Source: an uncultured SAR86 cluster bacterium
GTDB taxonomy: Bacteria; Pseudomonadota; Gammaproteobacteria; Magnimaribacterales; D2472
Assembly (NCBI GenBank): GCA_943789005.1
Contig: CALSSL010000001.1
Coordinates: 1-64,000, forward strand
Length of the DNA stretch: 64,000 bases
Reading direction: 5' to 3'
The notes under the pieces are model-generated. The model saw nothing but the letters and a program-made list of their open reading frames with translations, searched no databases and was not told the origin of the DNA. This document shows positions 1 through 55,854 of this stretch, piece after piece (position 1 is the stretch's first letter; every line of letters begins with the position of its first letter). A program made the position numbers and the translations under genes.

Positions 1-1944
1 CTCCTGTTATTAGTGTTACCAGTGGAACTGATACTGTAGAACTTGGTGCTACCTGGACTGATGCTGGTGCAACAGCTGATGGTGGTGAAACAGTTACAAC
101 TTCTGGTTCTGTAGATACATCAACAGTTGGTACTTATACAATCACCTACTCAGCTACTGATGCTTCAGGCAATACTAGTTCTGAAACTAGAACTGTTACA
201 GTCGTTGATACAACTGCTCCTGTTATTAGTGTTACCAGTGGAACTGATACTGTAGAACTTGGTGCTACCTGGACTGATGCTGGTGCAACAGCTGATGGTG
301 GTGAAACAGTTACAACTTCTGGTTCTGTAGATACATCAACAGTTGGTACTTATACAATCACCTACTCAGCTACTGATGCTTCAGGCAATACTAGTTCTGA
401 AACTAGAACTGTTACAGTCGTTGATACAACTGCTCCTGTTATTAGTGTTACCAGTGGAACTGATACTGTAGAACTTGGTGCTACCTGGACTGATGCTGGT
501 GCAACAGCTGATGGTGGTGAAACAGTTACAACTTCTGGTTCTGTAGATACATCAACAGTTGGTACTTATACAATCACCTACTCAGCTACTGATGCTTCAG
601 GCAATACTAGTTCTGAAACTAGAACTGTTACAGTCGTTGATACAACTGCTCCTGTTATTAGTGTTACCAGTGGAACTGATACTGTAGAACTTGGTGCTAC
701 CTGGACTGATGCTGGTGCAACAGCTGATGGTGGTGAAACAGTTACAACTTCTGGTTCTGTAGATACATCAACAGTTGGTACTTATACAATCACCTACTCA
801 GCTACTGATGCTTCAGGCAATACTAGTTCTGAAACTAGAACTGTTACAGTCGTTGATACAACTGCTCCTGTTATTAGTGTTACCAGTGGAACTGATACTG
901 TAGAACTTGGTGCTACCTGGACTGATGCTGGTGCAACAGCTGATGGTGGTGAAACAGTTACAACTTCTGGTTCTGTAGATACATCAACAGTTGGTACTTA
1001 TACAATCACCTACTCAGCTACTGATGCTTCAGGCAATACTAGTTCTGAAACTAGAACTGTTACAGTCGTTGATACAACTGCTCCTGTTATTAGTGTTACC
1101 AGTGGAACTGATACTGTAGAACTTGGTGCTACCTGGACTGATGCTGGTGCAACAGCTGATGGTGGTGAAACAGTTACAACTTCTGGTTCTGTAGATACAT
1201 CAACAGTTGGTACTTATACAATCACCTACTCAGCTACTGATGCTTCAGGCAATACTAGTTCTGAAACTAGAACTGTTACAGTCGTTGATACAACTGCTCC
1301 TGTTATTAGTGTTACCAGTGGAACTGATACTGTAGAACTTGGTGCTACCTGGACTGATGCTGGTGCAACAGCTGATGGTGGTGAAACAGTTACAACTTCT
1401 GGTTCTGTAGATACATCAACAGTTGGTACTTATACAATCACCTACTCAGCTACTGATGCTTCAGGCAATACTAGTTCTGAAACTAGAACTGTTACAGTCG
1501 TTGATACAACTGCTCCTGTTATTAGTGTTACCAGTGGAACTGATACTGTAGAACTTGGTGCTACCTGGACTGATGCTGGTGCAACAGCTGATGGTGGTGA
1601 AACAGTTACAACTTCTGGTTCTGTAGATACATCAACAGTTGGTACTTATACAATCACCTACTCAGCTACTGATGCTTCAGGCAATACTAGTTCTGAAACT
1701 AGAACTGTTACAGTCGTTGATACAACTGCTCCTGTTATTAGTGTTACCAGTGGAACTGATACTGTAGAACTTGGTGCTACCTGGACTGATGCTGGTGCAA
1801 CAGCTGATGGTGGTGAAACAGTTACAACTTCTGGTTCTGTAGATACATCAACAGTTGGTACTTATACAATCACCTACTCAGCTACTGATGCTTCAGGCAA
1901 TACTAGTTCTGAAACTAGAACTGTTACAGTCGTTGATACAACTG
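1..1944 (+). repeat. Tandem array 1: nine copies of a 216-bp coding unit
   Basis: Units begin at 1, 217, 433, 649, 865, 1081, 1297, 1513 and 1729. I see no base differences between copies. The period is 216 bp (72 codons), so copy-number change keeps the reading frame. The array continues to the left edge of the window, so the true number of copies here may be higher. Confidence 0.97.
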
Positions 1945-45177: not shown

Positions 45178-46893
45178 TTATCTAAAATAGGTTAGAAACT
45201 GAAGAAAGTCTGTATTACTACCATCAACTTCAATATCTCCAGAAGCCAAAGCCATCACTGGGTTAGCAAGACCAGAAATTGCCATTTTAAAGTTAAGTTC
45301 TGTTGCTTTTACACTAATAGCACATGGATTAGTTATCTCATTAGATATTGCAGCAACCTGATTTCTAATCGATATTGTTTTTCTTAGTCCTGATGAAAAA
45401 TAAAAACAAACATTCATGTTCTTATTTATAACTTTTTCAGGGTTTAATCTAACAGATAGAATGCTAAAAATAGTATCTATTGAAATTTCTTTAACACCTT
45501 CTGAAGTTCTTTCTGTTTCTTCAAAAGAGACAAAGCTATCACTTAACTCCAGTGCTGATGTAAGAAAGTAATTTCTTTTATTGGGGTTTGAAGACCTTGT
45601 TCCGATATAAAGCAAAGCCTCTCTTCTTAGAGATTCCACTTCAGCAATAGAAAAATTTAATGCCATCAACCTGTCACTGAGCTCCAAGGCCCACTGCATT
45701 TCTTTATCATTTACGGCATTTTGAAATGCTAAAAATAAAGCTTCCTCTCCTCCAACTAGATTCGCAAATTTTTGAGCTTCTTCTTTTCTTGATAATGGAT
45801 CTAATTCAGCAGGATTACCATTAAACCAACCAAGATAGCCATTGTAAATACTTTTAACCGACCATCTTACTGTGCCATAAAATTCATTTAAAAAAGGAGA
45901 CTTTTTTATAGATTCTGGCAAATCAACTAATTCAATAATTTGATCTGGGTACAAACCTTGATTCATTAATCTAACAGTTTGATCATGGACAAACTGAATT
46001 GCGTCCCTGTACAAAATAAAAGTATCTGATATTACCTCTAACCCAACAATTGGCTTGGTATGACTAGGAAACACATACTCCGAATTAAATGAACGCATGT
46101 GGTCTAGGCTTGAAACCCATCCCATTACATCTCTATGAGTTGTTCCTCTAATTGTGTACAGATTTGGAAATGTCTTATATATATTATCCCCAGGCATTAA
46201 TGATTTATGATTTGGTAACCAGACAAATAATTGATCATTGGTTTCACCAGGGGCGTGATAAAGTTCAATGTTTACACCAGCTATGTTTATCTTAAGTTCA
46301 TCCTCAAACGTTGTATCTGGACTAACATAACCAAAAGGTGATTTGGAAATATTGAGACTTTTACCAATGCCAACATTTATAACATCATCTTCAGGTAAGG
46401 CGGTTCCAAACATTCTAGTACTTCTGGTGCTAATTATAGGATTAATTATTCCAAGAATTCTTTGCATATAATAATCTGTGGATTGATGTGCAATAATTTT
46501 TGGTCTTTCTTTCTGTGTTGTTAAGTAATATGCAGTTCCAAAAGTGTGATCACCATGGTTATGAGTATAAACAATAGCTTTAATTGGATTTGAATTTTTT
46601 TGCTTGAAAAGTTTATATATCTCTTCTGCCTCATAAGTACTGTCAGATGAATCAATAATAATATTTCCTCCATCTCCTTCGACCATTATTGAATTAGCTA
46701 TACCAAAGCCAATCGCTACGTGTATTTTTCCTCCTGGAGTGCTATAAGAATATATCTTTCTTTCAAATTCTTTTGAATGCTCTATAAGGTTTTCTACTTG
46801 AGAGGTTTTTGGGATTTCAATTTCGTTATCTTGTGGAGCGCATGATAAAAGAAATAAGCAGAATAAAAGACCTAGTATATTTTTATAAATCAC
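45178..46893 (-). CDS. Lipoprotein alkylsulfatase-like MBL hydrolase
   Basis: 571 residues. A signal sequence with lipobox LLSCAP puts it in the envelope. The metal motif THNHGDHTFG, HAPGETNDQLFVWLP and LMPGDNIYKTFPNLYTIRG match the SdsA1/BDS1 alkylsulfatase group. A dimerisation-type helical region and a C-terminal SCP2-like domain (VDGSNTDFLQFL) follow. It is shorter than SdsA1, about 660 residues. It probably releases sulfate or fatty alcohols from alkyl sulfates. Confidence 0.87.
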   Translation of the reverse strand: MIYKNILGLLFCLFLLSCAPQDNEIEIPKTSQVENLIEHSKEFERKIYSYSTPGGKIHVAIGFGIANSIMVEGDGGNIIIDSSDSTYEAEEIYKLFKQKNSNPIKAIVYTHNHGDHTFGTAYYLTTQKERPKIIAHQSTDYYMQRILGIINPIISTRSTRMFGTALPEDDVINVGIGKSLNISKSPFGYVSPDTTFEDELKINIAGVNIELYHAPGETNDQLFVWLPNHKSLMPGDNIYKTFPNLYTIRGTTHRDVMGWVSSLDHMRSFNSEYVFPSHTKPIVGLEVISDTFILYRDAIQFVHDQTVRLMNQGLYPDQIIELVDLPESIKKSPFLNEFYGTVRWSVKSIYNGYLGWFNGNPAELDPLSRKEEAQKFANLVGGEEALFLAFQNAVNDKEMQWALELSDRLMALNFSIAEVESLRREALLYIGTRSSNPNKRNYFLTSALELSDSFVSFEETERTSEGVKEISIDTIFSILSVRLNPEKVINKNMNVCFYFSSGLRKTISIRNQVAAISNEITNPCAISVKATELNFKMAISGLANPVMALASGDIEVDGSNTDFLQFLTYFR

Positions 46894-47452: not shown

Positions 47453-50320
47453 ATGTTTAACCTTCAAGAACAAAAGTATATTCCTTTATTAGATATTAAT
47501 GCTCAAATATATAACGAATCTGAATTTAATTGCAAGCATGTCCATTTGGATACTAATAGCGACGAAAAGGTTTTTATGGTTGCTTTTAGAACTATTCCAG
47601 AGGATTCTACTGGAGTAGCTCATATTCTTGAACATACTGCTCTTTGTGGTTCTAAGAAATATCCTGTAAGAGATCCCTTTTTTATGATGATCAGAAGATC
47701 CCTTAATACATTTATGAATGCTTTCACATCAAGTGATTGGACGGCTTATCCTTTCGCAACTCTTAACAAGAAAGATTTTGATAATTTATTAGGGGTGTAT
47801 TTAGATTCATCATTCTTTCCTAATCTTGATAGTTTAGATTTTGCTCAAGAAGGACACAGGCTTGAATTCAAAGAGAAAAATAATCCTGATAGTGAAATTG
47901 AAATAAAAGGTGTTGTATATAATGAAATGAAAGGTGCCATGAGTTCAATAACAAGTCAATTGTGGCATGGTATGTCAAAACATTTGTACTCTTCATCAAC
48001 TTATAAACATAATAGCGGTGGAGATCCAGAAAATATTATTGACCTTACTCATGAAGACTTAGTCAATTTTCATAAAAAACATTATCACCCATCTAATGCA
48101 ACCTTCTTTACATTTGGTAAATTAGACCCTGAGGAAATCCAAAAATTTATTAAAGCTAATGTACTAGATAGCTTTTCTCCATCTAATGATGTTGTAGCAG
48201 TGAGAAATGAAGAAAGACTATCATCACCAAAAACAATTTCTGATTTTTATAATCCTCAGCCTGGAGATGAAGACAATCATCATGTTGTAATTAGCTGGCT
48301 GCTAAATGAAAGTCATAATCCTATAGAGCTACTGGAGACTTACCTAATGTCTAATATACTTTTAGATAACTCAGCATCGCCTCTTCGAAAAGCTCTAGAG
48401 GGTTCAACATTAGGTACCTCGCCATCCCCTCTAACAGGATTAGAGGCAGACCAAAAAGAACTTGTTTTTGCTGCCGGACTTGAGGGAGTAGGAGCTAATA
48501 AACAAATAGAAGTTGAAAGATTGATAATAGAGTGTCTTGAATCACTTGTTAAAGATGGAGTCCCAAAAGATTTAATTAGCTCTTCTTTACATCAGCTTGA
48601 AATAAGACAAAGAGAGATAACGGGTTCAGGAATGCCGTTTGGTCTTCAAATAATGTTAAATTGTTTGCCTGCTTGCATACATAATGACAATCCTCTTGAA
48701 ATTCTGGATCTAGATAATGCATTTGATGCTATTAAAGAAAACTTAAAATCAGAAAATTATATTGAAAACCTAATTGAAAAAAATCTTATTTTAAATAAAC
48801 ATAGATTAAATTACTCTCTAATACCAGACACTGAATTCAATAAAAAAAATGAAGAAAAAATTCAGCAGAAAGTCATTGAAAAAACTAGAGATTTGTCACA
48901 AAAAGACAAGGAAGATATTGTTAGGCTAGCAAATGAGCTTGAATCCAGACAGAATGCGCATGATGATCCTGAGATTCTTCCAAAGGTAACAAAAGATGAC
49001 ATACCTCTTTCAAGAAACTATGCATCTCCAGTAATAACAAAAACCAATGCAAGTTCTAATTATTTTTACAAAACTGGAACAAACGGTATTATTTATCATT
49101 CTATGTTATTTCCATGTGATGCTTTAAATCAGGATGAGTTAAGGGTTGCAAACCTTTTTACAAATACATTAACAGATATCGGCCTTGGTAAAGATTCATA
49201 TGAAGATATTCAAAAATATCAATCTTCGATAACTGGTGGCATTTCTGCTTCGTTTGTTACATTGCCAAATGATGAGGGTGATTCGTATAAATTAGCTTTA
49301 AAAGTCTCATCTAAGAGCTTAGAAAAAAATGATCTATTAATGCAGGATTTGATGTTAAAAACAGTGAGTGAGTCTAATTTTAATGAATCAAAAAGAATTA
49401 AAGAGTTGCTAGAGTTTATATCTGCGGATAATGAAAAATCAGTAATTCAAAATGGTCATATTCTATCAATGAGTAATGCTGCATCTCAAATAACAGATAT
49501 TGCAGCAACCAATGATTTAACTTCAGGATTGAGGTTTATCCACAATACAAATAAGTTATCTAAACTCGTTGATGATAAAAATGAATTTGAGTTATATTTA
49601 AATACTCTTCAGTCCATTAAAAATAAGGTGTCAAAAACGCCCAATTATTTATTTAGTGCTTCTTCATTAGATCAATCTGATCTTAAACTAAATACTATTT
49701 TTAATGCAAAATCTATTGATTTAAACAATCAAAATTTTGTTGGGGTTCAAGATGGTTCAATTGGCTGGATTACTGGATCGCAAGTATGTTTTTGTGCAGA
49801 AGCTTTTCCATCAGTTGATTCTAAGCATGAAGATGCTCCTGCCTTAACTGTTCTTGGCACTGTATTGCGTAATGGCTATCTTCATTCAGCAATTAGAGAG
49901 AAAGGCGGAGCTTATGGATCAGGAGCTATTCAAGATTCAAACAATGAAGTATTTAAATTTTTCTCATACAGAGACCCAAAGTGCTCTGAAACATTTGAAG
50001 AATTTAAAAATTCGCGAACTTGGTCTTTAAAAAATATATCAGAAGATCAGCTTGAGGAAGGTGTATTAGGTGTTATTTCAAGTATAGATAAGCCTTTATC
50101 TCCTTACGGTGAAGCAATGAGTGATTTCACGAGTGAGCTTGATAATAAAACACAAGAAGAACGCTTACTTTTTAGATCAAGAGTAAAAGAATGCACACTG
50201 GAAGATCTTGTAAGAGTTTCTGAAAAGTATTTATTTAATGATTCTAAGATATCCGTTATAGCTGGTGAGAGCTTTACTGAAGAGCTTTCTAAACTAGGTT
50301 TTGAGGTAAAAAATATCTAA
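47453..50320 (+). CDS. M16C-family metallopeptidase (PreP-like)
   Basis: 955 residues. The inverted zinc motif HILEH is at residues 57-61, followed by TALCGSKKYPVRDPFFMM and FMNAFTSSDWTAYPFAT, hallmark of the presequence-protease (M16C) subfamily. The distal zinc glutamate is in GVVYNEMKGAMS. The C-terminal half has REKGGAYGSGA. No signal peptide, so it is likely a cytoplasmic oligopeptide-clearing enzyme. It degrades unstructured peptides in a closed chamber in known members. Confidence 0.93.
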   Translation: MFNLQEQKYIPLLDINAQIYNESEFNCKHVHLDTNSDEKVFMVAFRTIPEDSTGVAHILEHTALCGSKKYPVRDPFFMMIRRSLNTFMNAFTSSDWTAYPFATLNKKDFDNLLGVYLDSSFFPNLDSLDFAQEGHRLEFKEKNNPDSEIEIKGVVYNEMKGAMSSITSQLWHGMSKHLYSSSTYKHNSGGDPENIIDLTHEDLVNFHKKHYHPSNATFFTFGKLDPEEIQKFIKANVLDSFSPSNDVVAVRNEERLSSPKTISDFYNPQPGDEDNHHVVISWLLNESHNPIELLETYLMSNILLDNSASPLRKALEGSTLGTSPSPLTGLEADQKELVFAAGLEGVGANKQIEVERLIIECLESLVKDGVPKDLISSSLHQLEIRQREITGSGMPFGLQIMLNCLPACIHNDNPLEILDLDNAFDAIKENLKSENYIENLIEKNLILNKHRLNYSLIPDTEFNKKNEEKIQQKVIEKTRDLSQKDKEDIVRLANELESRQNAHDDPEILPKVTKDDIPLSRNYASPVITKTNASSNYFYKTGTNGIIYHSMLFPCDALNQDELRVANLFTNTLTDIGLGKDSYEDIQKYQSSITGGISASFVTLPNDEGDSYKLALKVSSKSLEKNDLLMQDLMLKTVSESNFNESKRIKELLEFISADNEKSVIQNGHILSMSNAASQITDIAATNDLTSGLRFIHNTNKLSKLVDDKNEFELYLNTLQSIKNKVSKTPNYLFSASSLDQSDLKLNTIFNAKSIDLNNQNFVGVQDGSIGWITGSQVCFCAEAFPSVDSKHEDAPALTVLGTVLRNGYLHSAIREKGGAYGSGAIQDSNNEVFKFFSYRDPKCSETFEEFKNSRTWSLKNISEDQLEEGVLGVISSIDKPLSPYGEAMSDFTSELDNKTQEERLLFRSRVKECTLEDLVRVSEKYLFNDSKISVIAGESFTEELSKLGFEVKNI

Positions 50321-50321
50321 T

Positions 50322-50933
50322 TTAGAAGAAAAAAAACCTATTCTTCTTAAGTTCTTTTGCGCATCCCCAGTATTGCTGTTGATATTTTGTAGATCTCGCT
50401 TGCACTCTGTCTGCTACTTTGATTAGCCACGGCTTTTTTCTATAAGTTTTTTTCTTAAAGCCTCCATACCCTTCATGATAAGCAAGATAAAGTGAACGCG
50501 CATCTAGCCTATCAAAACCTTGATAATATCCTTTGCTTGCATACCAGCCAATGAAATCTGCTGAATCTTTAAAATCTTTTCTATTTGCCCTAGTATTTCC
50601 AGTTTCCTCTTTATAATCTTCCCAGGTCATATTTAAAGCTTGAGAGTAGCCAGCAGCAGTTGATTCTCTTTTCCATGGAATGACCCATAGTAATTTTGTT
50701 CTCTTAGGCTTTGCATCTGATTGAAAGCTTGATTCTTGATACACAAAAGACATTAGTACATATGGTGGTATTTTCCATCTTTTTTCAGATTGCATAACAG
50801 CCTTATACCAACTTTTTTTTTCTTCAAAAATTAGGCAGATGTTATCAGGATTCTTTGGGGGTGTTGCCATGCATGACTGAAGCGTAAAACCCAATAAAAA
50901 GATTAATGAAAATTTAAAATATTTAATATTCAT
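50322..50933 (-). CDS. Lytic transglycosylase-domain lipoprotein
   Basis: 203 residues. Lipoprotein signal FLLGFTLQSCMA. The SLT-type core has the catalytic glutamate in FVYQESSF, AGYSQALNMTWEDYKEE and ARSLYLAYHEGYGGF. Such proteins cleave peptidoglycan glycan strands. It ends with a Phe-rich tail (NRFFFF). Overlaps the ligase stop by one base and is convergent with the M16C gene. Confidence 0.8.
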   Translation of the reverse strand: MNIKYFKFSLIFLLGFTLQSCMATPPKNPDNICLIFEEKKSWYKAVMQSEKRWKIPPYVLMSFVYQESSFQSDAKPKRTKLLWVIPWKRESTAAGYSQALNMTWEDYKEETGNTRANRKDFKDSADFIGWYASKGYYQGFDRLDARSLYLAYHEGYGGFKKKTYRKKPWLIKVADRVQARSTKYQQQYWGCAKELKKNRFFFF

Positions 50934-52216
50934 TAGATCTTTTCACCTGGTTCAAACCCTCTAAAAGTTTTAAAACGAGGAAATCTTAAACTAAAGTGCT
51001 CACCTTCGATACTTTGGGTTATAGCATCAGCCCTGATTTCAATTAATTGACCTATTAAAGAATCTCTAGCTTTCCAAAATTTTTCTCTATCATCGTCTGT
51101 AAGGCCACTTCCCACGCTTAAAGAGAAAAACTTACCATCATCTTCTCCTTCAACTGAAAAGGCTCCAAGCTTGCCCGCATGCTTTCCAGTGCCTTCTTGA
51201 ATTTGAGTAACCTTAAGGGTAACTTCTATAAAAGGTTTTATTTTAAGCCAGGCATGACTTCTTTTAGATTCGTATATGTCGTTAACAGGTTTGATCATCA
51301 ATCCTTCATAACCCTCTTCGAGCGCCTTCTTATTCATGTCTGAAAATATTTTTTGACCATCTTTAGTATCAAAATCTAAGATTGCATATTCAACAGGCTT
51401 GATACAAGAATCGAAATTTTTTGATATATCATTAAGTGAATCTTTTCTCTCCAGACTATTAAGCTTGCTTTTGCCCTTATTGAACTCATCCAAAGGTAGT
51501 ATGTCAAAGAGAGCTAAATAAGCATCGTCAGTTTTAGCATTTGTTTTTCGATGCACCTGCTTCATAAGTGATTGAAAATCATCACTAACTACCTCTCCAT
51601 CAAATACTAAATTGTTGAATTCTTTTTTGTTCAGAGCATCTTCTATGTGAGGAAAATTGCCTAAAATTTTTCCATTTCTGCTATACAAAGTTGTGCTATT
51701 GTTTCTAGTGATGGCTATGACTCTAACTCCATCATATTTATATTCAACGAGACATTTTCCTTGAATTTTTTTTGGGTGTTTTGCGCCATCGTGAGCTAGC
51801 ATGCATGAAAAAACAGGAACGCTATATTTTAAGCCCATTTTTTTTGAAACATTGTTGACTGTTTTTTGGCTTACTCCACACCTGAGATCTTTTATTAGAA
51901 TTCTTCTGTACCAATCATTCCATTGCTCTGAGGTTGCTAGAGACATTATGTGTAGAATTTCATCTCTAGCAGCATGACCAGTTCTTTCCCTATTTATTAG
52001 AAGCTGGGCTGAGAATTTAAATGTTTCCCAATCAAGACCCTTGCCATCATTGCTAGATTCTGGAACTTGTTTAACACCAAATGTTACTAATGCATCCAAA
52101 CACATTGATAACCCTTCTTGTAAAACAACATCATTGAGATTGTCTTCTATAACACCTTCTTTAAATAATCTACTATTATCACTCTCTAATTTCTGAATTA
52201 TTTTCCAGGGTTTCAT
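50933..52216 (-). CDS. ATP-dependent DNA ligase
   Basis: 427 residues. Nucleotidyltransferase motif I is EYKYDGVR with the AMP-accepting Lys at about residue 160. LYSRNGK, FDGEVV, EGLMIKP (motif IV) and WLKIKP (motif V) follow, then an OB-fold with GSGLTDDDR and RFPRF. The N-terminal domain has RERTGHAARDEI and IKDLRCGVSQKT, which I know from T4-like phage ligases. There are no zinc-finger, HhH or BRCT regions, so it is not an NAD-dependent LigA. It directly follows smc-zipA, where gammaproteobacteria usually carry ligA. Confidence 0.9.
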   Translation of the reverse strand: MKPWKIIQKLESDNSRLFKEGVIEDNLNDVVLQEGLSMCLDALVTFGVKQVPESSNDGKGLDWETFKFSAQLLINRERTGHAARDEILHIMSLATSEQWNDWYRRILIKDLRCGVSQKTVNNVSKKMGLKYSVPVFSCMLAHDGAKHPKKIQGKCLVEYKYDGVRVIAITRNNSTTLYSRNGKILGNFPHIEDALNKKEFNNLVFDGEVVSDDFQSLMKQVHRKTNAKTDDAYLALFDILPLDEFNKGKSKLNSLERKDSLNDISKNFDSCIKPVEYAILDFDTKDGQKIFSDMNKKALEEGYEGLMIKPVNDIYESKRSHAWLKIKPFIEVTLKVTQIQEGTGKHAGKLGAFSVEGEDDGKFFSLSVGSGLTDDDREKFWKARDSLIGQLIEIRADAITQSIEGEHFSLRFPRFKTFRGFEPGEKI

Positions 52217-52234: not shown

Positions 52235-52867
52235 TCATTTATTTTCTGAGGTACTTAACTGCTTCAATCTCATAATTTCCTGCGCCTGAGATTCTATATG
52301 CGAGATCATTTGTTTTGTAATAGGCATTCTTTCTTGATCACATATATTTGCATAAAATTTTTCTGAGAACTGATAAGCAAAATTAACCATTTCTTTTACT
52401 GAACCTAAAGGATCATTGACGTTATTAAGATCTGTTGCCAAAAGAACAGCAAAAGTTTCTGTTTCGTTTTCAAATGTGCCAGGATTTAAAGCATTTGCTA
52501 TACGAAATGATTCTTTATTATTTCTATCTTTAATAACGAAAAAACCATTCGTGAGAATTGCATTTGAATTAGTCATAAAGCCATATATTTGATCAATATC
52601 AAACATAGATTTATCAATAGATATTAAATTGAGGACAACAAGTTTTTGTTCTTGATATTGAATATCTTTATGCTCATTAAAATCGAAGGCTTTTTGAGAT
52701 TTCGTCTGTATTTCATCTATCTCTTTTATCTCAAAAGAGTCTATTACAGGTTCAATATTAACTTTTAGCTCTCCAGAATTAGAAATTTTTCTAATAAATA
52801 GAAATGTAATAATTAAAAAAATTAGTACAGATAAACCTATTAGATATATGTCAATATTTTGTTCCAT
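52235..52867 (-). CDS. zipA: Cell division protein ZipA
   Basis: 210 residues. One N-terminal membrane segment (about residues 7-25), a short linker (shorter than in E. coli) and the C-terminal FtsZ-binding domain (KLVVLNLISIDKSMFDIDQI, NGFFVIKD, TFAVLLATDLNN). It anchors the FtsZ ring to the inner membrane. It overlaps the end of smc by one base. Confidence 0.88.
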   Translation of the reverse strand: MEQNIDIYLIGLSVLIFLIITFLFIRKISNSGELKVNIEPVIDSFEIKEIDEIQTKSQKAFDFNEHKDIQYQEQKLVVLNLISIDKSMFDIDQIYGFMTNSNAILTNGFFVIKDRNNKESFRIANALNPGTFENETETFAVLLATDLNNVNDPLGSVKEMVNFAYQFSEKFYANICDQERMPITKQMISHIESQAQEIMRLKQLSTSENK

Positions 52868-55854
52868 CAGGCCTCAGCAAATTCTAATGCTTGATTCACA
52901 TCAACGGATACCATTCTGGAAACACCGGCCTCCTGCATTGTGACACCCATCAAATGATCACTCTTTTCCATTGATACTTTGTTATGAGTAATAAATATAA
53001 ATTGAACTGTTTTTGACATCTCTTCAACCATATTTATAAATCGCATTGTATTTAGATCATCAAGGGGAGCATCTACCTCATCTAATATACAAAATGGTGC
53101 AGGGTTGAGCTCAAATATTGCAAAAACTAATGCTAAAGCAGTCAAAGCTTTTTCACCACCAGATAATTGTGAAATAGAAGAATTCTTTTTGCCTGGAGGC
53201 CTTGCCATAATAACCACACCAGCATTTAATGCATCATCTTCAGTTAAGGTAAGCTCTGCTATACCTCCGCCAAATAATTTTGAAAATACCTCTTTCATTC
53301 TGTTGTTTATAGCGTCAAAGCTATCTTGAAATCTAGTCTTTGTTTCTAAATCAATTGTTTTGATTGCGCCAGTGAGCTTTTCTAGAGCCTCGGTTAAATC
53401 ATTATATTGAATATCTAATTCTTCCTTTCTTTTTGATTCAGATGCTATTTCCTCTGGAGCTGCTAAATTAATTGCACCAAGACGAATAATTTTAGATTGA
53501 ATATCTGTCAGACTATTTTGCAACTCATTGATATCCATACCCTCATACTTTGAAAAATCAATATTTTCTATCTTTACTCCAGACTCTTTAATTTTAGTAT
53601 TAGCGTTATCTAAATTTATTTCATGGGTTTTAAGCTCGAGTCTTAAGTTTGTTACTTTTTCACCAATTGATTTAAGATCAAGATCAGCAATAGATTTTTG
53701 ATTTTCTAATTCTCTCAAGCTATTGTTAAATTCTGATTGCTTTTGTCTGATATGAGTTAATTTTGATTCAGCAACAGAGCTCTTTTCAACAAGATCTGAC
53801 ATAATTTTTTGGATTTCAAGTTTTTTAGCCTTGCCTTCTGAAATCATCTTATTAAGCTCATTTTGCCTTTCAAGATACTCTTCTGGGGAAGCTAAATTAG
53901 ATGACCCTAATTCAGCAATATTTTTTTGAATTTCATCTAATGAATTTTCTAGACTCACAAGATCTGCTCCTACGTATTTAGATGAATCTAATTCAGATAA
54001 ACTGATACCAGCTTTATCTAAAACTATGGAGGCATTTTCTAGATTGATCTCATGAGTTCTTAATTCAAGCCTGTAATCAGAAATATTTTTTTCCAAACTT
54101 CTTAGCTCATTAGATGCTAATGACTTGCTGCTGTCTAAATCTCTAATTTTTTCATCAATGTTAAGCTGATTTTCCAACTTAGAGTCCAATTCATTTTTTA
54201 TGATTATATTTTTTTCTTTTAACTCAGATAATTGGTTATTTTTAGATAACGCATCTTCAGAAGTTGTTTTAATAAGATCTTCTAGCTGGTTCTTTCTATT
54301 TAAAAAGTCAGCTGTATAATTTTTAGATTGATCTGATGCAATTTTAAGAATATTTATTAGAAGTACCTTTAATTCATTGACCTTGGAATTTAATGAATCT
54401 GCCTTGGAGCCAAATGCTTTCAACAGTTCAGTGATCGAATCAAGTAAATGAATAGCTTTTTCCTTTGGACTTAAATGCTCGTTGTTTGACTCTTTTTGCA
54501 ATGCATCAGAGTAATTGCTGCTTGCTTTCTCAAAATCCAACCTTGCGTTCTCTTCAATCTTATTGAGATTTTGAAGTGCTCCTTCTAACCTTGCAATATC
54601 AGCTTCAATAGAATATTTTTTTTGTTGAAGTGATGTTATTTCTTCAGTAATTTCTGTCTGATCTCCTTTAACTGCATCTACAATACTTTGTTTTGAATCT
54701 AGTTCATTTTGTTTTTGTATAATTTTTTCTTCTAAAGGTTTTATAGATATATCAATGACGCTTTTTTGCTTAAGGGCGTCAAGAGCTTTAACAATAGCAA
54801 TATCAAGCTTCAATTCTTTTTCTTTAGGGCTTAGATCCTTGAAACTTGATTCTTTTTCTATTGCATCCTGATAGCTGGCTTTTGCTCTCTCAAGAGCATC
54901 TGTATTAGAAATTTCTAATTTAGAAACATTTTGAAGATCTGATTCATATTTAGCTATCTCAGCCCCTATTGAATAAAAGTTTCTTTGAGCATGTTCATAT
55001 GCATCTACAACAGAAGCATTTTGTGTTCTATGTTCATCTATTTGAGCTTGTTTTGAATCAGATTCAGCTTGTTTAATTTTTAAATCTCTATTCAAGGCAT
55101 CAAGGTTCTTTTGAAGTTTATCTCGATTATTCTTAGCTTCAAGAGAGTATAGTATTGCAATATCAATTTGCTTCTGACTTTCATCTTTTTTAAATTGATT
55201 ATATTTTTCTGCTGCATTTGCTTGATTCTCAAGCCTTTTGATTAATCTCTCAATTTCATCTTTAATATCTCTAACTCTTGATAAATTTTCTTTAGTTTTT
55301 TTGATTCTACTCTCGGTTTCTCTTCTTCTTTCTCTATACTTTGAAACTCCTGCAGCCTCTTCGATATGAGTTCTTAGCTCTTCAGGTTTAGCACTTACCA
55401 GTCTACTAACCATGCCTTGTTCAATAATTGCATATGAGCTTGGGCCCAATCCAGTTCCTAGAAATATGTCTTGAACATCTTTTCTTCTGCATTTTGTACT
55501 ATTAATAAAATAAGTAGATTGAGCATCTCTAGTCATAACTCTTTTTATTGAAATTTCAGTAAATGAAGCATATTCCCCACCAATTTTTCCACTTGAATTA
55601 TCAAATAATAGCTCGATGCTACATTGGCCAGAAGGTTTTCTATTTTCAGATCCGTTAAAAATAACATCGACCATAGATTCGCCGCGAAGATTTTTAGCAG
55701 ATAGCTCTCCAAGAACCCATCTAACAGCATCAATAACATTAGACTTACCGCAGCCGTTAGGACCTACAACACCAACTAAATTTGATGGGAAAGATATCTT
55801 CGTTGGATCTACGAAACTTTTAAAACCTGAAAGTTTTATATGATTTAACTGCAT
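52867..55854 (-). CDS. smc: Chromosome segregation protein SMC, short form without a recognisable hinge
   Basis: 995 residues against about 1160-1190 usual. Walker A GPNGCGKSN is at residues 31-39, the signature LSGGEKAL at 897-904, and Walker B FCILDEVDAPLDD at 921-933, so the ATPase head is intact. In the middle (about 480-560) I find only helical sequence (LLKAFGSKADSLNSKVNEL, FLNRKNQLEDLIK) and no Gly-rich globular hinge of about 150 residues. The arms carry two internal duplications: about 293-370 versus 413-490 (both with LSPKEK) and about 574-670 versus 717-815 (RLELRTHEINLENA / RLELKTHEINLDNA). The frame is unbroken. Confidence 0.93.
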   Translation of the reverse strand: MQLNHIKLSGFKSFVDPTKISFPSNLVGVVGPNGCGKSNVIDAVRWVLGELSAKNLRGESMVDVIFNGSENRKPSGQCSIELLFDNSSGKIGGEYASFTEISIKRVMTRDAQSTYFINSTKCRRKDVQDIFLGTGLGPSSYAIIEQGMVSRLVSAKPEELRTHIEEAAGVSKYRERRRETESRIKKTKENLSRVRDIKDEIERLIKRLENQANAAEKYNQFKKDESQKQIDIAILYSLEAKNNRDKLQKNLDALNRDLKIKQAESDSKQAQIDEHRTQNASVVDAYEHAQRNFYSIGAEIAKYESDLQNVSKLEISNTDALERAKASYQDAIEKESSFKDLSPKEKELKLDIAIVKALDALKQKSVIDISIKPLEEKIIQKQNELDSKQSIVDAVKGDQTEITEEITSLQQKKYSIEADIARLEGALQNLNKIEENARLDFEKASSNYSDALQKESNNEHLSPKEKAIHLLDSITELLKAFGSKADSLNSKVNELKVLLINILKIASDQSKNYTADFLNRKNQLEDLIKTTSEDALSKNNQLSELKEKNIIIKNELDSKLENQLNIDEKIRDLDSSKSLASNELRSLEKNISDYRLELRTHEINLENASIVLDKAGISLSELDSSKYVGADLVSLENSLDEIQKNIAELGSSNLASPEEYLERQNELNKMISEGKAKKLEIQKIMSDLVEKSSVAESKLTHIRQKQSEFNNSLRELENQKSIADLDLKSIGEKVTNLRLELKTHEINLDNANTKIKESGVKIENIDFSKYEGMDINELQNSLTDIQSKIIRLGAINLAAPEEIASESKRKEELDIQYNDLTEALEKLTGAIKTIDLETKTRFQDSFDAINNRMKEVFSKLFGGGIAELTLTEDDALNAGVVIMARPPGKKNSSISQLSGGEKALTALALVFAIFELNPAPFCILDEVDAPLDDLNTMRFINMVEEMSKTVQFIFITHNKVSMEKSDHLMGVTMQEAGVSRMVSVDVNQALEFAEA

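Follow-up and report, generated by a model that had tools for sequence, protein, structure and literature searches.

Nearly all bacteria copy their chromosome with an NAD-using DNA ligase, and E. coli that lacks LigA can live on an ATP ligase. Part of SAR86, a widespread ocean-surface group, breaks the NAD-ligase rule. Among natural LigA-less bacteria, Babela massiliensis is the one stated case found in the literature searched, an amoeba parasite whose NAD ligase is stated to have been replaced by an ATP-dependent ligase; the relevant passage of that account is silent on whether the exchange kept the site, came from a phage or spread as a mosaic (PMC4378268). The NCLDV viruses have complementary NAD and ATP ligase types with several displacements, according to the available extract of their description (PMC2806865). 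Pmar-Lig of Prochlorococcus marinus (PDB 6RAR, 6RAS, 6RAU), as presented in the extract of its structural account, is an accessory enzyme in a cell that keeps its replicative NAD ligase, and provides a biochemical precedent for the activity of the SAR86 ligase (PMC6698739). No paper on displacement of LigA by an ATP ligase in SAR86 or HIMB59 was found in the literature searched.

The ligase described here is similar to Pmar-Lig in its full-length homology and in the same arrangement of DNA-binding, nucleotidyltransferase and OB domains; unlike the accessory Pmar-Lig, it is the only ligase found and sits at the ligA locus. It belongs to the same protein family as the T4-type phage ligases (PHROG 114) and has its nearest relatives on marine phage contigs, yet its gene lies in a bacterial chromosome, within smc-zipA-SLT4, and is under strong purifying selection. 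SAR86 shares with B. massiliensis an ATP ligase in place of the NAD ligase; in contrast to what the passage on that parasite relates, SAR86 keeps the site and ligase type varies within genera. Likewise, the NCLDV case concerns viruses, for which the extract has ligase-less intermediates inferred, whereas in SAR86 the exchange takes place at one locus of a cellular chromosome.

The reading favoured here, with a probability of roughly 0.88, is that in one SAR86 family a T4-type phage ATP ligase took the place of ligA, precisely between zipA and the gene of an SLT-family transglycosylase (SLT4), is now the sole ligase, and later spread. As the cell's only DNA ligase it would seal Okazaki fragments and repair nicks with ATP, not NAD+, and its gene would have moved from genus to genus through recombination reaching no further than the gene and its immediate borders. 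A phage-type replication enzyme would in that case have taken over a core cellular role. The family offers a natural experiment, in which close relatives with the same operon differ in ligase chemistry, and makes it testable whether bacterial replication depends on NAD out of functional need or by historical accident. Beyond the initial annotation of this locus, the analysis adds the mosaic of ligase types within genera, the movement of the ligase alone between genera and a second marine lineage with the same loss and a related ligase.

The window is a stretch of 64,000 nt from an uncultured SAR86 bacterium (GCA_943789005.1, contig CALSSL010000001.1, positions 1 to 64,000). The gene order on its minus strand is smc, zipA, ligase, SLT4 (Table 1), with 1-nt overlaps between smc and zipA and between the ligase and SLT4, and 18 nt from the end of zipA to the ligase start. 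Given the shared strand, the overlaps and the 18-nt gap, these four genes are probably co-transcribed. The tight spacing of the ligase after zipA, reported from the reading frames at the outset, is borne out. Elsewhere in the window (45178-46893) is a metallo-beta-lactamase-like ORF, judged by eye to be possibly an alkylsulfatase.

Table 1. Features of the ligase locus, by position in the window or by residue of the ligase
Feature	Position	Strand	Basis or remark
PreP-like M16 peptidase, convergent	47453..50320	plus	conserved; serves as outer flank in the flank tree
SLT-family transglycosylase (Pfam SLT_4)	50322..50933	minus	bounds the swapped gene on the right, whichever the ligase type
ATP-dependent DNA ligase, 427 aa	50933..52216	minus	ORF with ATG start; Pfam, 6RAU and PHROG matches
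N-terminal DNA-binding region	residues ~1-147		extent from the full-length 6RAU match
Nucleotidyltransferase domain	residues 148-327		limits from Pfam
OB domain	residues 341-419		limits from Pfam
Motif I lysine K160 codon (EYKYDGVR), predicted AMP attachment site	51737..51739	minus	counted from the start at 52216
zipA, directly upstream of the ligase	52235..52867	minus	ZipA_C 3.1e-13
smc	52867..55854	minus	TIGR02168 3.7e-253

Within the ligase ORF, DNA_ligase_A_M (PF01068, 6e-24) and DNA_ligase_OB_2 (PF14743, 3.3e-11) both score above cut-off, PHROG 114 ('ATP-dependent DNA ligase') matches at 6.3e-89, and residues 5-427 align with the P. marinus ATP-dependent ligase 6RAU (E 6.8e-134). K160 is invariant across 16 aligned ligase sequences. 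The identification as an ATP-dependent ligase with K160 in KYDGVR is thus one on which Pfam, PHROG, the 6RAU alignment and the invariant lysine agree. The ORF contains the motif I lysine, nucleotidyltransferase domain and OB domain of the T4/Pmar-Lig type, and by its alignment with 6RAU it also appears to possess the N-terminal DNA-binding domain. The epithet 'T4-like' names the correct kind of enzyme, though those closely related to it are ligases of uncultured marine phages and Pmar-Lig. Homology to Pmar-Lig suggests that the enzyme would seal nicks using ATP.

Lig E enzymes, according to the extract of their description, consist of PF01068 and PF14743 only, without an added DNA-binding domain (PMC8455567). 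The SAR86 ligase has both domains in common with them, but membership was rejected given its ~147 extra N-terminal residues homologous to Pmar-Lig. Lig D (NHEJ), Lig C and the other named bacterial ATP ligases were discarded because the curated NCBIfam cut-offs were not reached: TIGR02779 scores 93 bits against a cut-off of 228, and all 13 ligase models listed fall below their own cut-offs. A chance ORF is ruled out by full length, conservation and selection; among nine ligase pairs picked by hand, dN/dS is 0.035-0.053 in seven, indicating strong purifying selection, and the other two have saturated dS and give no ratio.

The window's own assembly comprises 1,269,645 bases in 4 contigs and is 91.2% complete. 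It has no match to LigA (PF01653) in a search that matches 11 of 14 control genomes, and its single PF01068 match is the ligase of Table 1, so that no second ligase of that family is present. At this completeness, the case for the absence of LigA draws in part on the locus being occupied and on the related genomes. Across the 203 genomes of the SAR86 order, the ATP ligase is found in 43 and PF01653 in 132; 29 have neither and one (G004) has both. Requiring completeness of 90% or more and contamination of 5% or less leaves 40 genomes, of which 11 have the ATP ligase, 27 have LigA, 2 have neither and none has both. LigA is missing, and the ATP ligase present, in two genomes that each consist of a single contig, G018 (1.23 Mb) and G023 (1.33 Mb). 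Additionally, PF01068 matches 20 of 61 genomes searched, always in this ligase gene and in none of the LigA-bearing genomes among them.

The one apparent double carrier does not withstand inspection. The PF01653 match of G004 is a 188-aa fragment at a contig edge (L247:7929-8492), ~30% identical to SAR86 LigAs and ~42% identical to subunit A of a T5-type phage NAD ligase, to which type it was assigned. With this fragment being phage-type, host-type LigA is found in 0 of the 43 ATP-ligase genomes, and the two ligase types exclude one another. The same contig also has GroEL- and CysS-like ORFs (by eye) and is possibly chimeric.

As a baseline, PF01653 is present in 352 of 364 good gammaproteobacterial genomes; the 12 without it are two of this SAR86 family (G000, G021), three of 0.3-0.4 Mb and seven of 40-540 contigs. 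In G021 (AG-422-O05), which has no LigA, the only ligase found (L101) is broken in two where it differs by 1 base from a relative of 96% identity. The cause is probably an error in sequencing or amplification rather than a real lesion.

These counts bear on whether the enzyme could be an accessory repair ligase, as Pmar-Lig is, with a LigA elsewhere that was missed through incomplete assembly or divergence. The extract on Pmar-Lig, the closest solved relative, does place that enzyme alongside a replicative NAD ligase (PMC6698739), and the 91.2% completeness of the window's assembly leaves room for a missed gene; yet host-type LigA is absent from all 43 ligase genomes, two of them single contigs, the same PF01653 profile detects LigA across the order (132 of 203) and in good gammaproteobacterial genomes (352 of 364), and the ligA site itself is taken by the ATP ligase. 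An accessory role is accordingly regarded as highly improbable. A hidden LigA was rejected on the zero PF01653 matches in the own genome, the zero host-type matches in the 43 genomes and its absence from the two single-contig genomes. The supposition that there is no ligA elsewhere stands, both for this genome and for the ATP-ligase genomes of the order. As the only ligase found, the ATP ligase would have to seal Okazaki fragments, and from this a replicative and essential role is inferred.

In all 42 ATP-ligase loci and all 18 LigA loci fetched, the latter from the same family, the ligase gene is placed between zipA and SLT4 (this count omits the G004 fragment L247). In these 60 fetched loci smc lies upstream and PreP usually downstream, and none has both ligases side by side. 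The order smc-zipA-ligA, expected from other Gammaproteobacteria, thus holds in the LigA members of the family, and the possibility that the clade normally places ligA at another site does not apply. The replacement is present and the original gene absent, as non-orthologous displacement demands; with the ATP ligase at the same zipA-SLT4 site, the proposal of displacement at the original locus is upheld.

A family ancestor with both ligases, followed by differential loss without later transfer, could also yield the two types. The SAR86 ligases do form one clade and run mostly along genus lines, as such a history would have it. Against it, both types occupy an identical site and 0 of 60 loci carry both; for one genome, G031, it is refuted, as the history of the ligase conflicts with that of its flanks. 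Overall, differential loss is considered unlikely.

G031 belongs to genus g8, and all four flanking proteins have their closest matches in its g8 sisters, with identities of 81-83% for SMC, 64-67% for ZipA, 83-88% for SLT4 and 71-77% for PreP. Its ligase is 85-88% identical to those of two g1 relatives, to which its SMC is 71-73% identical. In a tree of 41 of the 42 SAR86 ligases (the split L101 left out) and six viral rows, the G031 ligase is placed inside the g1 ligases with support of 100/98. AU tests reject both a group of g1 ligases without G031 (p 1.6e-5) and the joining of the G031 flanks to that g1 group (p 3.4e-5). At the DNA level, the identity profile of the locus is compatible with transfer of a segment roughly as long as the ligase gene, although the contrast is modest. 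The ligase of G031 has been transferred without its flanks. Recombination through the conserved end of zipA and start of SLT4 is the likely route.

The mosaic extends to four genera (g1, g5, g7 and g8), each with both ligase types, and ligase type needs at least seven state changes on a tree of SMC and PreP. This tree has 55 rows, drawn from the 60 loci after removal of five that are frameshifted or incomplete (L235, L089, L090, L094 and L095). If the ligase spread by recombination confined to itself, the NAD and ATP ligases would behave as two non-homologous alleles of one locus. Two g5 genomes (G152 and G173, loci L240 and L241) have LigA amid ATP-type relatives and have possibly regained it; the LigA tree (17 rows, L235 and L247 left out) is weak at the forks bearing on a return from ATP ligase to LigA.

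A 48% identical ligase occurs in a chromosomal setting in HIMB59-type alphaproteobacteria (L109, L110). PF01653 is found in 1 of 32 genomes of the HIMB59 family, for which completeness values are not given. In this genome (G584) LigA is preceded by an SMC-like C-terminus and an ORF of ZipA length, which by eye is the gammaproteobacterial order; given that smc-zipA-ligA context, it is probably a contaminant and was set aside as a LigA holder of the family. The ATP ligase was matched in 25 of the 32, reduced to 24 as G582 has only weak 28% matches. The neighbours of these ligase genes (loci L109, L110 and L248-L271) are conserved, and by eye encode a Cas4-like nuclease, a lipoprotein-like ORF and an MMPL-type protein; with its own conserved neighbours, the site differs from that of SAR86. 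Only 4 of 385 sampled genomes of the class to which HIMB59 belongs have a match, and all four are of the HIMB59 family. In a tree with HIMB59 ligases (70 rows picked by hand), the AU test rejects SAR86 and HIMB59 ligases as one clade (p 0.005). It is likely that the HIMB59-type bacteria, without a LigA of their own, acquired a related ligase separately, as a second parallel displacement. It is possible, at somewhat under even odds, that NAD and phage-type ATP ligases are unrelated but interchangeable alleles of an essential replication gene, exchanged to and fro at one site across the SAR86 family by short-tract recombination, and that phage-type ligases displaced LigA at least twice independently in streamlined marine bacteria, once in SAR86 and once in the HIMB59 type, under a shared pressure such as NAD/NMN cost or phage interaction.

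In the ligase tree the SAR86 enzymes constitute a single clade (SH-aLRT 100), and almost everything else in it is viral. The tree has 133 rows from 225 loci, after removal of partial matches, remote homologues (L056-L065, L112-L145) and identical copies. Among the nearest named relatives, which are MAGs and single-cell genomes carrying the label SAR86 or gamma proteobacterium, identity to the ligase of the window is for example 95% (AAA168-P09), 75% (SAR86A) and 69% (D2474-A1-1, complete genome CP097973.1). At least 598 relatives lie on contigs of uncultured marine phages, up to 65% identical among the matches listed; by PHROGs, the contig of the 65% match (L147) encodes a DnaB-like helicase, a primase, ThyX and a virion protein. 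Records of phage isolates are more distant, with the best 30 of 1366 listed at 37% identity or less and all 1366 below 60%.

The direction of transfer depends on rooting, and the outgroups of the tree are long branches that leave the root uncertain. The lack of a firm root is what would allow marine phages to have taken the ligase from SAR86. Such a capture is nevertheless very unlikely, as at least 598 relatives on phage contigs contrast with a single narrow clade in SAR86, 369 sampled genomes of the class yielded no full-length homologue beyond the SAR86 family, and the HIMB59 ligases and Pmar-Lig also fall among phage sequences. Phage-to-host transfer is the simplest reading. The suggestion of a possible phage source is thus supported by the trees and by the 65%-identical ligases in phage contigs, while the direction itself is deduced. 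Pmar-Lig (6RAU) itself groups with L192 (SH-aLRT 99) within a clade of marine viruses, which suggests a phage origin for this enzyme as well. The contigs L102 and L105, binned as Rickettsiales and Pelagibacter, look by eye like phage contigs in their gene content.
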